Below, in pieces: positions 12,279 to 19,222 of a stretch of 29,780 nucleotides of DNA; positions within the stretch are counted from its first letter, which is position 1; each line of letters starts with the position of its first letter. The stretch is from a virus. The stretch spans positions 1 through 29,780 of IMG/VR virus record IMGVR_UViG_3300047557_001054, one strand, 5' to 3'. Position numbers and translations under genes: made by a program. The notes under the pieces are model-generated. The model did no database searches, was not told where the DNA came from, and saw only the letters and a program-made list of their open reading frames with translations.

Positions 12279-12427
12279 TTTGCTTTAGGCTTTACCTTGA
12301 TAACTGGCTTACCCTTTGACTTGCCAGTTTTAATATCTGTATCACCGGGGTATCTCTTGTTCTTGGAAGGTAGGCTCTTGCCCTTGCTGATTGCTGCGTC
12401 TAGCGCGTTCATTTTTTTGCCTGGCAT
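12275..12427 (-). CDS. Lys-rich small protein (50 aa)
   Basis: The ATG at 12427 overlaps the terminase TAA as TAATG, and the TGA at 12277-12275 overlaps the next GTG. Fourteen of 50 residues are Lys (MPGKKMNALDAAISKGKSLP; ends VIKVKPKAK). Only a weak AAAGG lies upstream, so translation probably depends on re-initiation after terminase. It is likely disordered and strongly basic. Together with the 49-aa neighbour and the 44-aa protein after the portal gene, it forms a set of three basic microproteins around the portal gene. Confidence 0.7.
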   Translation of the reverse strand: MPGKKMNALDAAISKGKSLPSKNKRYPGDTDIKTGKSKGKPVIKVKPKAK

Positions 12428-14286
12428 TATATGAATTGCCTTTCTTGTTCGGCCAACAAGCTATCCAAGTTGACGACTACTCGTTTGTTCTTTTCTGCTC
12501 TAGATAAGAACGGGTTGTTTAGGTGATGCTTTTGATAAATACCAGTGTTGAGCCATTCTCTAGCTCTAATCTCACAGAACCAAAGGGCCATTACCATATC
12601 GGTCTTGCCTTTAGTGGTAGGTGACCAGGTAATAAGCTGTTCCATCAAAGCTTTTATGTTCTCAGTTTGATCTGAAGGCAAATGAATTAAGTTATCGCGG
12701 TGATGTTTGCCGTCTTGCTGCTTAGTTCCAAACAAGGTAGACATAGATGCCACACCGAAACCAGAATCCCATTTGTTATTTCCGGTGTGATGTTCTCTTA
12801 GTACAACTCCTTTAGAAGCCAGGAACTGTCTAATTCCTTCGTCTTGGGTAAGGAAGGACTGAAAAGCATTACGTTCGACAATCCATTCGGCTGGAGTGTA
12901 AAGATTAGTCCAATCGAGGATAAGCTGGCGAATTTGCGCCGGTGTAGGACGCGAGATTTTAACAGCGTCAACAATAAACCTTTTATGAGAAATACGATCA
13001 ACTGCATAACAAACTGCTGCTGTGTCTCCGACCATTGCCGGGTCGAGACCACAGACGATACTGAAACCGTTGAGGTCTTTGGGGTGACCAGGATTGCCAG
13101 GTACCAATCGTCCTGCTTTTCGCATTCCATCGATTGAACCTTTCACGCATACCGGGTCAAAGATTGCATCATCGGATACATCCTGCTGTTGATAAACCAA
13201 AGCCCAGGTCTGAGCATCCATAGCTTGGCGCTCATTGTAAAGATGCTTGCCGTGCCAACGGGGATATAATCCCTCTTCGGTTTTATCTGATTCAGTTTGT
13301 CCATCAAATGGCTGATCTGAATAAGGCCAGAGCGTAACCCATTTATCAGGGTCTTCATCAGTTTCAAGTAGGGCTGGCATTGCCAAATATGTCCAAGGGA
13401 CTAAGCCACCAGGATACCTGTCTGGGTTACGCAATTCTTTGTATAGGTCGACGGAAGCAACACGTGTTCCAATAACGACCAATTTGCCCGTCGGGTTAAG
13501 ACGGGATCTAACATCTTGTGTTAACCAGCGAATCTGCTTTTCAAACTCATTAGCGTTCTTTAAGGTTACCGCATCATCTACGATGATCATATCGGCACGT
13601 TTACCGTAAATCTGACCGCCGATACCTACGGCTTCAATGTTTGGGTCTTTTTCGCTAGACTCTCTAAGTTCATCACCAAAGACCACACGGGTGGCTTGCC
13701 AGGATGCAGACTTGGAGTTAAAGCCTACACCTGCTGCGTAAGCGGTCTGCAGCTCTTCATACATCGGGTGGGTAAGGCGCTGCTTAATAGCGTAGAGAAA
13801 GTCAGCGGCTAGCTGCTGAGTCTGGGAAACTATCAGGACTCTAAAGTTAGGGTTGGTGGCTACCTTCCAGGTTACATAGTCAACGGTTATGGTAATTGAC
13901 TTTGCGTGGTTAGGAGGGATATTTAGAAGGATGCGGTTATCAGCGGTACCCTTCTCATACTTCATAGAGGGGTGGTGCCAGCTAGGGTCTCTGCCTTCTA
14001 TGACATCTACCAGGTTCTGCTGGTGACCAAAGGTGTTCTGGTGTAGAAAGCGTTTTCTAAAGGCCGCGAAATCTAAATCGTGTACATCGGCAGAGGCGTA
14101 TGACTTGTCCTTCAGACCTAGCCGTGTTCTATCCATTTTATCGGCAAAGACCTTATCGGTCCTGCGGTAGTACTCGTAGGTCTTCATAGACTTACCAGCG
14201 GATCCTACGGCTTGTTCTACTGTTGCGCCTTCGGCTACAGCCGCGAGTATAACTCGCTTTGCTATCTCTGAGCTTTTCTCAGCCAT
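12427..14286 (-). CDS. terL: Terminase large subunit with N-terminal HTH-like region
   Basis: The start is taken at ATG 14286 (MAEKSSEIAK) because AGGAG lies four bases upstream; an in-frame ATG at 14349 has no RBS. The 619-aa product is a DNA-packaging motor. Residues 1-50 look like a helix-turn-helix (IAKRVILAAVAEGATVEQAV...SMKTYEYYRR), as in small terminase subunits. The ATPase has a Walker A variant PPNHAKS (124-130), Walker B MIIVDDA (233-239) and a coupling motif VIGTR (271-275). The nuclease part has D415 (GLDPA), E471 (VERN) and D563 (KTDMVMA), typical of RNase H-fold TerL nucleases. No separate small-subunit gene is seen in the window. It is the first gene after the divergent control region. 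Confidence 0.92.
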   Translation of the reverse strand: MAEKSSEIAKRVILAAVAEGATVEQAVGSAGKSMKTYEYYRRTDKVFADKMDRTRLGLKDKSYASADVHDLDFAAFRKRFLHQNTFGHQQNLVDVIEGRDPSWHHPSMKYEKGTADNRILLNIPPNHAKSITITVDYVTWKVATNPNFRVLIVSQTQQLAADFLYAIKQRLTHPMYEELQTAYAAGVGFNSKSASWQATRVVFGDELRESSEKDPNIEAVGIGGQIYGKRADMIIVDDAVTLKNANEFEKQIRWLTQDVRSRLNPTGKLVVIGTRVASVDLYKELRNPDRYPGGLVPWTYLAMPALLETDEDPDKWVTLWPYSDQPFDGQTESDKTEEGLYPRWHGKHLYNERQAMDAQTWALVYQQQDVSDDAIFDPVCVKGSIDGMRKAGRLVPGNPGHPKDLNGFSIVCGLDPAMVGDTAAVCYAVDRISHKRFIVDAVKISRPTPAQIRQLILDWTNLYTPAEWIVERNAFQSFLTQDEGIRQFLASKGVVLREHHTGNNKWDSGFGVASMSTLFGTKQQDGKHHRDNLIHLPSDQTENIKALMEQLITWSPTTKGKTDMVMALWFCEIRAREWLNTGIYQKHHLNNPFLSRAEKNKRVVVNLDSLLAEQERQFI

Positions 14287-14323
14287 CAGGCTCCTAAAAT
14301 TTTTGGATAGATTTATCCCCACT

Positions 14324-14343
14324 AAAAGAGGCGGCTTCGCCTC
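14324..14343 (-). terminator. Attenuator-like hairpin upstream of terminase
   Basis: Read on the minus strand, GAGGCG-AAGC-CGCCTC (14343-14328) forms a 6-bp GC-rich stem with a 4-base loop, followed by TTTT (14327-14324). It lies between the candidate late promoter and the terminase start, in the leader, so it could act as a transcription attenuator. The T-tract is short and termination strength is uncertain. Confidence 0.4.
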
Positions 14344-14480
14344 ACTCATCGGGCTTGAGCGCCCGAGCGAGCTACAGCGAAGTGAGGGGTAAGTCTGCTC
14401 TCCGCCCTAGGGGGCGTAGCGCAAGCGTAGCCCATCGGGATATACCCTTCCCCGCTGTATATCCCTCTACTGTATAGTAG
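14341..14480 (-). promoter_or_regulatory. Leader dense in inverted repeats, upstream of terminase
   Basis: In 140 bases I see several perfect dyads. CTCACT/AGTGAG (14341-14346 and 14381-14386) encloses TCGGGC/GCCCGA (14349-14354 and 14361-14366). The word GCGTAGC is repeated directly (about 14415-14430). GGGATATAC/GTATATCCC (14437-14445 and 14457-14465) has a 9-bp stem, and CTACT-GTAT-AGTAG spans 14467-14480. In the expected minus-strand transcript these would be tandem hairpins ahead of the attenuator-like stem. Use as an antitermination (put-like) leader, a packaging site or an operator array is inference. Confidence 0.5.
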
Positions 14481-14487
14481 GCGGGAA

Positions 14488-14516
14488 ATTTTAGGCGTTT
14501 CCCGCATAGTTGTTAA
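14488..14516 (-). promoter_or_regulatory. Candidate late promoter within an 8-bp dyad
   Basis: On the minus strand TTAACA (14516-14511) is followed after exactly 17 bases by TAAAAT (14493-14488). Each hexamer is one base from the sigma-70-type consensus. The dyad GCGGGAAA/TTTCCCGC (14481-14488 and 14498-14505) flanks the -10, a typical place for a repressor or activator site. Expected transcription start is near 14480, giving a leader of about 195 bases to the terminase ATG. Confidence 0.6.
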
Positions 14517-14964
14517 AAAACTTTATAGATGTGACTAACGTCACGAATATAGCGGTATAAAACGGACAGACCGAACAAAAGGATCTCACTTTAGTGCAGA
14601 TTTTTTGTGAGGGTACATCCCATCCCTCCCCCGCGTTTTCAACAACCCGGGGTCGGCCTGCTCTGCTCGGGCAGACACCCACCCCCTGCCCTTTTCTCGT
14701 ATCGAATAGAGGAGAGAGAGGGAGTTGCTACCCGCTCGGCACCCCCTCGCGCCCTGCCCCCTAGCTTTCACAATCGCGCCTGCCGAGATTAATAATGCTT
14801 TTCACCCCTTGCCCTTGTCGATATACCTCACCCGCCGAACCTCTCGCCTCCACCCAATCACCCCGGCAGATTGTTGAAAGTTCAACTAAGTCTCAACCTC
14901 TACTCTAGAGTTTCAAGGGCTAAAGCTCTGACCGGTCAATGACCGCTTTACCTGTTAAATGGGG
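14517..14964. other. Non-coding divergent control region with operator-like palindromes
   Basis: I see no credible gene here: frames are short, Pro/Arg-rich and lack RBS. From about 14615 to 14870 the plus strand is strongly pyrimidine-rich (CCC runs), unlike the surrounding sequence, with related words CACCCCCTGCCCTT (14680) and CACCCCTTGCCCTT (14803). Palindromes: GTGAC-TAAC-GTCAC (14531-14544), GTTGAA-AG-TTCAAC (14873-14886), CTCTAGAG (14903-14910), TGACCGGTCA (14929-14938) with a further TGACCG at 14940-14945. The group just upstream of the plus-strand promoter looks like an operator cluster. An origin or packaging function for the pyrimidine-rich part is possible but unproven. Confidence 0.45.
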
Positions 14965-18213: not shown

Positions 18214-18587
18214 AGCGCAAGTCCGTAATCTAGATGCAGAAAACCAACGAGCTTCATAATCTTTCTAGTGTTAGCAAACTCCGTAGTAGCGGGCATTCTA
18301 CGCTCACTCCACGCAGGTTCCGGTACTCTAGTTAAATCAAAAGCCCATACCCCTTGCGGGGTGGAGTTAATATAATAGGGAGTGCGAGTGCCTGCCTGAT
18401 TGATAAGGCGGCGGTACTTCATCTCCTCAATAAGTAAATCAGGGTAGTGTGTATGCCTACACTTCAGCTCTATGTATAGGTTCTTATCATCACTGGTACA
18501 GTCAAAGTGATCAAAGACCCCTTCAGATTTAACAAGGTCAGGGAAGTGACTCTCTTTTAGATAGTCAAATAACTCTTGTTCTCTCAT
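18210..18587 (-). CDS. PD-(D/E)XK nuclease-like protein (125 aa)
   Basis: ATG at 18587 is TAATG-coupled to the sigma-like gene; an in-frame TTG at 18596 is less likely. The segment FDHFDCTSDDKNLYIELKCR holds a D29 ... E40-x-K42 arrangement on predicted beta strands, as in restriction-endonuclease-fold enzymes. The later part has TPYYINSTPQGVWAFDLTR, which resembles the strand region after the active site. Specific role is open: a DNA repair or host-DNA-degrading nuclease is inference. Confidence 0.6.
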   Translation of the reverse strand: MREQELFDYLKESHFPDLVKSEGVFDHFDCTSDDKNLYIELKCRHTHYPDLLIEEMKYRRLINQAGTRTPYYINSTPQGVWAFDLTRVPEPAWSERRMPATTEFANTRKIMKLVGFLHLDYGLAL

Positions 18588-19222
18588 TAGTTCCAAGGAC
18601 TTTCTCCGCCGAGTAAGTTCTGTAACTTACGCAGGGCATTGGTGCATCTGCGATCAGCGGTAGATACCGCACAACCTAGATACTCTGACATCTCTTGCAG
18701 GGTTAAAGACTCGTGGTATCTCTTGATTAGTATGTCTTTGTCTGCCACATCCAGCTTTAGATAGGCCTTCTTAATATCAATTAGGATAGCTAGCAGGTTG
18801 CCGCCTTCTGCTGGAGCTGACTGCTTACGTGGCTGACCATCATTAATCATCTCTTGTGCTTGCTCTAATACTGTCCCGTCAATAACTGAGGAGATAACGT
18901 GAGGTAGTAGCTGTGCTAGCACTAGCGTGTCATAGAAAGACTCATCGCCTACCTGATAGCCGCTTCTCTTAGCCTTCTCTTTGCGAGCGTAACGCTCACA
19001 GTGACGGCGCATCTGCCAGGAGATACGCTTCTCATTGATAGTTCTTTGCAGTGAGTTCTCTTCATTAAGCAAGGTGGCATAGTGTTCAGCTCTAGCCATA
19101 GCCCAGGCATAGCACTCCTGAGTTATGTCATCTCGTTCCACCCATTGGCGGAAGCGGCGGTAGATACTGTTAGCTACCGGCGGGACTAGATCAAAGAACG
19201 CGGGATGTAGTTGGTTGCTCAT
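18587..19222 (-). CDS. Sigma-70-like RNA polymerase factor (211 aa)
   Basis: Residues about 15-60 resemble region 2 (VANSIYRRFRQWVERDDITQ, then ECYAWAMARA, like the D-D-L-x-Q-E motif of sigma factors). The last 55 residues form a region 4-type helix-turn-helix (DKDILIKRYHESLTLQEMSE, YLGCAVSTADRRCTNALRKL). Size is close to ECF sigma factors. Start ATG 19222 has AAGAGAG upstream. It could direct host RNA polymerase to middle or late phage promoters. Divergence from bacterial sigma factors is strong, so DNA-binding regulator without polymerase binding is an alternative. Confidence 0.75.
   Translation of the reverse strand: MSNQLHPAFFDLVPPVANSIYRRFRQWVERDDITQECYAWAMARAEHYATLLNEENSLQRTINEKRISWQMRRHCERYARKEKAKRSGYQVGDESFYDTLVLAQLLPHVISSVIDGTVLEQAQEMINDGQPRKQSAPAEGGNLLAILIDIKKAYLKLDVADKDILIKRYHESLTLQEMSEYLGCAVSTADRRCTNALRKLQNLLGGESPWN

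Follow-up and report, generated by a model that had tools for sequence, protein, structure and literature searches.

A conserved promoter block and a structured leader heading the late operon in a group of probable freshwater actinophages

Background

The late genes of phage lambda are transcribed from one promoter, pR', which is followed by an untranslated leader of about 190 nt before the late operon; the 6S leader, the terminator tR' and antitermination by Q belong to this system. In the put RNA of phage HK022 and other processive antitermination RNAs, stem-loops near the 5' end of the phage transcript could modify RNA polymerase in cis. In the actinophages WC1, D29 and Kampy, intergenic regions give rise to very abundant noncoding RNAs of unknown function (PMC10986025), the actinobacterial Crp/GlxR consensus is GTG-N6-GNCAC (PMC10033298), and LanE43AprE7 and AprF5 (E7 and F5 below) are cultured phages of Planktophila (PMC10202952).

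The locus described here lies in a virus record of 29,780 bases, IMGVR_UViG_3300047557_001054, which as a whole is called the window. It resembles lambda pR' in that a single probable late promoter is followed by a long untranslated leader before the late operon. Unlike the lambda system, the leader has a conserved, covarying fold, its terminator is not conserved, and no Q-type gene was found among the window proteins examined. It differs from the put RNA in size, sequence and operon, and has no Rfam match. With the RNAs of WC1, D29 and Kampy it has in common that these are noncoding transcripts of actinobacterial phages, but the element in the window is a leader whose fold is defined and conserved. 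E7 and F5 belong to the same lineage, share the sigma factor and carry a hairpin-rich noncoding region before the terminase gene terL, but their leader differs in sequence and lacks the UUACCCCUC core. Searches of the open-access literature turned up no earlier account of a structured terL leader for this phage group.

Results

Two genes of the window are needed to place the element:
12427..14286, minus strand: terminase large subunit (TerL; phrog_38, E 2.6e-62), here the first gene of the late operon
18587-19222, leftward: sigma-like protein (Sigma70_r4); homologues in 18/18 related phage records

The late genes, among them those for TerL and a portal protein, are read leftward from 14286, the position of the terminase ATG, which is preceded by AGGAG at 14295-14291. 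A rightward gene group begins at about 15046; replication genes and the sigma-like gene run leftward, further right. The TerL of the window shares 46% identity with its counterpart in E7 and F5 (OX376640/1) and 43% with the TerL of Streptomyces Beephvirinae phages; on this likeness the window phage is very likely an actinophage that infects freshwater Nanopelagicales or bacteria close to them.

Relatives were collected by a TerL search of viral contigs, and the best 80 loci among the matches listed are 82-94% identical. The element, consisting of promoter block and leader, is present in 77 of these 80 loci, and the other three contigs begin inside it or just downstream. The core motif was found upstream of terL in 57/80 (at most 3 mismatches); in nearly all of the remaining loci the dyad, the UUUAGU-N-GGG end motif or both are present, and the core is shifted by small indels or diverged. 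Both core and dyad are missing from loci L023, L037 and L062, whose contigs extend only 71-187 nt upstream of terL. The viral collection was also scanned with the core pattern, and many of the loci listed again carry the promoter block. In all, at least 102 distinct leaders were collected and 97 distinct promoter regions compared. Among 20 larger records the core pattern occurs once in 16 and is absent in 4, in which the TerL search shows shifted or diverged cores; it is never at a record's end. Matches to promoter-like and terminator-like patterns are by themselves near chance (4 found vs 2.0 and 2.4 expected), and the observation therefore rests on conservation in relatives. Judged by that comparison, the control region of the late operon is real and conserved.

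The promoter block contains the following features:
14531..14544, no strand assigned: palindrome GTGACGTTAGTCAC, a putative CRP/GlxR-type activator site that matches GTG-N6-GNCAC
14480..14505, minus strand: 26-bp dyad GCGGGAAA-N9-TTTCCCGC+C, probably an upstream promoter element or operator
14469..14479, minus strand: probable -10 region TACTATACAGT (TACTAT or TACAGT), adjoining the dyad on its 3' side
14488..14516, minus strand: TTAACA-N17-TAAAAT, proposed as the promoter in an earlier note on this DNA, probably not the working -35/-10

The geometry of the block is fixed. The palindrome, the only perfect match in the window, lies upstream of the dyad with 9-10 or 24-25 bp between them in the 97 promoter regions, where GTGA-N6-TCAC is perfect in 82 and never falls below 7/8. 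The two spacing classes (e.g. L010, L075) differ by about 1.5 helical turns. GTG-N6-GNCAC is thus found upstream of the promoter as in Crp/GlxR-activated actinobacterial promoters (PMC10033298), although here the promoter is a phage late one and the activator is putative. The dyad measures 26 bp in every relative that carries it, its arms CGGGAAA and TTTCC[TC]GCC are nearly invariant across the 97 regions, and it is unique in the window even when 3 mismatches are allowed (1 match vs 0.04 expected). Directly after it come T-A-T-A..AGTA columns that are nearly invariant among relatives, suggesting that the -10 is more likely this TATA-like box than TAAAAT, in which case the transcript would start at about 14467-14462.

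The earlier note had proposed a regulated late promoter followed by a hairpin-packed leader and an attenuator. Its hexamer pair is indeed present (14516-14488, minus strand), inside or overlapping the dyad at 14481-14505, but TTAACA recurs in 7/97 promoter regions and TAAAAT in 1/97; the hexamers are therefore probably accidental, and the pair was rejected as the working promoter. The inverted repeats that it described in the leader are real: 14437-14445/14457-14465 (9 bp), GGGC..GCCC, CGGGC..GCCCG and GAGGCG..CGCCTC, the last followed by TTTT (14343-14328). In relatives, to which it looked for a check, the dyad is conserved and the leader stems covary, both in its favour. The proposal is thus supported in part: for a control region of the late operon, its dyad conserved and its leader structured, but not for the named hexamers or for attenuation.

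Following the inferred start, the leader of about 170 nt contains:
14437..14465, minus strand: hairpin H1, GGGATATAC, 11-nt loop, GTATATCCC; 24 distinct stems in relatives
14412..14433, minus strand: hairpin H2, GGGC-UAC-GC-UUGC-GC-UAC-GCCC; 92.6% of cells paired
14397..14420 (approximate), minus strand: alternative hairpin H3, CUACGCCC-CCUA-GGGCGGAG; 5' arm common to H2
14362..14392, minus strand: core UUACCCCUC with H4 (ACUUCGCUGUAGCUCGC) and UCGGG; core nearly invariant, one copy per phage record
14349..14366, minus strand: predicted hairpin H5, UCGGGC-GCUCAA-GCCCGA; in most clades, changed or lost elsewhere
14328..14343, minus strand: H6, GAGGCGAAGCCGCCTC, a terminator-like stem, optional
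14306..14327, minus strand: leader end UUUUAGUGGGGAUAAAUCUAUC; UUUAGU-N-GGG..CUAUC in nearly all relatives

Compensatory changes are seen in the 5' hairpin H1, in H2 and in the core hairpin H4. H1 begins 12-17 nt after the dyad, and because its stems were chosen by pairing, the informative figure is the drop from full pairing to 46% when arms are swapped between phages. H2 takes the form GGGC-UAC-GN-NNNN-N'C-UAC-GCCC, in which the closing pair N-N' is C-G, G-C or U-A and is paired in all cases, and is CUCGC..GCGAG in other clades; its covariation is 0.390 vs 0.123 +/- 0.037 in shuffles, with slid controls at 0.092 or less. In H4, 4/5 pairs change on both sides, and covariation is 0.326 vs 0.132 +/- 0.024 shuffled, with slid controls at 0.151 or less. 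Shuffles do not remove relatedness, whereas slid controls keep it and score far lower; by arm-swap for H1 and by these comparisons for H2 and H4, the compensatory changes exceed the controls. H3 is predicted in several clades, with pair changes noted by eye from CUAC/GUAG to CUGC/GCAG. A long-range helix UUACCCC/GGGGAUAA (UUACCCC/GGGG(A)UAA) appears in the predictions for many clades; since its two strands are almost constant, covariation gives it no support.

Thermodynamic folding gives a more uneven picture. The 196-nt leader of the window folds at -78.8 kcal/mol (z -2.88; beaten by 2/200 dinucleotide shuffles), while some clades fold no better than shuffled sequence (L027, z -0.06; L054, +0.38). 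The antisense strand folds nearly as well as the sense strand (mean z -1.97 vs -2.35), the bias of G-U over A-C is weak as an indicator of the RNA strand, and the exceptions at the outer pair of H4 are A-C, not G-U. Unsupervised mutual information across the 102 leaders yielded single pairs only and was dominated by relatedness and misalignment. The consensus fold of a plain MAFFT alignment had only 7 pairs (-0.44 kcal/mol) because the stems change too fast, and the analysis was therefore made clade by clade and helix by helix. No gathering-level Rfam match was obtained for the window or 11 loci, and an E-value search of 7 loci returned only an unrelated match (E 0.99).

The leader ends about 9-196 nt before the first late ORF, which is terL itself or an ORF of 92-168 aa with terL 337-646 nt away. 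Three phages have a tRNA-Arg (ACG) gene in the interval from leader to terL (L026:537-612, L062:97-170, L064:477-550). Because an ORF or a tRNA-Arg can separate the two, a translation switch specific to terL is unlikely. Apart from this, the TerL start is apparently AUU (18 loci) or AUA (2 loci) in 20/80 best-listed TerL loci, examples being L010, L011, L012, L014, L016, L044 and L059. Those printed have AGGAG about 7 nt upstream and a conserved N-terminus, with no in-frame ATG just upstream and often a stop a few codons before. Such starts are rare start codons like that of infC.

Cultured E7 was considered as a carrier of the same leader and rejected, since the core is absent upstream of its terL. 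The E7/F5 clade as a whole has no core motif there and carries another conserved hairpin-rich leader, and the leader described here is therefore not essential in all relatives. The E7-clade leader (L201, L213, L221, L251, L254 and others; 330 nt upstream of terL) reads GTTCGG...CCAACRGGTTATC; the arms of its hairpins are apparently compensating, and in a dyad around TATAATATATAA the arms vary while the centre stays.

In two Streptomyces phages, WRightOn and FlowerPower, TATAAT/TATACT is the counterpart of the TATA-like box in the window. By hand count, a GTGAC palindrome has its centre 49.5 bp upstream of that hexamer, or at about -61.5 if initiation occurs 7 nt after it, and a leader of about 230 nt lies between hexamer and terL. 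This like layout suggests an old activator-dependent late promoter. WRightOn has two CRP-like palindromes upstream of its terL promoter (L198:293-308, 348-362) and FlowerPower at least one (L199:329-342), the nearer palindrome having the same spacing to the -10 as in WRightOn.

Identity of the phage sigma factor is 55-88% within the leader-carrying clade, falls to 32-35% for the E7 clade and is 24% for WRightOn. The factor may act at the late promoter but would not on its own account for the leader described here. The earlier note had named the sigma-like protein as a possible regulator; the gene is kept in 18/18 records, yet these include phages with other leaders, and it therefore does not single out this one.

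Discussion

The reading that we consider likely is a functional, cis-acting leader RNA coupled to an activator-type late promoter. We infer the identity of the activator, the sigma factor, the start site and the action of the RNA as follows. A CRP/GlxR-type activator, probably the host's, would bind the palindrome at 14531-14544, and transcription would be initiated at about 14467-14462 by RNA polymerase, which may use the phage sigma factor, from a promoter that joins the CGGGAAA/TTTCCCGC dyad to the TATA-like box immediately 3' of it. Over its first 170 nt or so, the transcript would fold into H1, H2 or H3, the core hairpin H4, H5 and an optional H6. The leader would act in cis on the late transcript and not via a terminator attenuator; most likely it would bind RNA polymerase, Nus-type factors or another protein, and the bound leader would keep elongation productive or protect the long mRNA.

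An attenuator or Q-type antitermination, in which H6 and its T-run would end transcription except where another fold or a phage protein intervened, is in our estimate highly improbable. The window does have H6 with TTTT, and overlapping helices in several clades (CCUCACU with AGUGGGG; H2 vs H3) could switch; the window's own CCTCAC/GTGAGG alternative helix is not general among clades. However, a stem of at least 6 bp with at least 4 GC pairs occupies the H6 position in 50/102 leaders; 17 have a weak stem there and 35 none, and the T-run is 3-5 T long. The conserved hairpin and U-run at the leader end that mark an intrinsic-terminator attenuator were not found, and because H6 is missing in 35/102, attenuation by it cannot be the shared function; the attenuator that the earlier note placed before the terminase falls on this count. 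Antitermination of internal terminators was also rejected, the late operon having no terminator excess (14 found vs 11.4 expected, both strands), and no antiterminator was found among 20 window proteins scanned against PHROGs.

The same optional hairpin, terminator-like in about half of the leaders, can be taken to favour a trans-acting product, an abundant phage noncoding RNA or packaging RNA made from a strong late promoter, whose read-through would supply the late operon. The element is compact, single-copy and near the terminase, and WC1, D29 and Kampy express very abundant intergenic noncoding RNAs (PMC10986025). We nevertheless judge this unlikely, as no 3' terminator is conserved, the first ribosome-binding site follows closely on the conserved end, and the cultured sister clade is without the leader RNA. 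The TerL of the window, moreover, we take to be an ordinary large terminase that needs no pRNA. That the element works as DNA, a cos/pac packaging site or replication origin beside the terminase whose dyads are protein sites, seems to us quite improbable. Its position adjoining terL, the weak strand bias of the hairpins and a physical left end at most about 660 nt from terL in Streptomyces relatives would fit such a site, but stem letters change freely with pairing kept, unlike protein sites, and H2 and H4 have internal loops. The earlier note's cos/pac alternative is also weakened because contigs of about 40 kb continue across the element, which occupies many different positions in them (20 records, element interior); the E7 and F5 records begin at different places relative to terL.

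Conclusion

Members of Ca. Nanopelagicales are among the most abundant lake bacteria, and we know of no account of how their phages switch on late genes. The element was found in every examined relative with enough upstream sequence. Its leader RNA probably helps control the late genes, and it matches no Rfam family. A more far-reaching view, that an undescribed class of freshwater-actinophage RNA heads every late transcript and acts through nothing but its fold to reprogram host RNA polymerase or the late mRNA, and that sister clades replaced the leader by unrelated structured ones at the same locus, is tentative, and we hold it to be possible but doubtful. The leader and promoter block form a concrete, testable element and a marker for this phage group, and the leader is a candidate RNA regulator of late transcription in actinophages.
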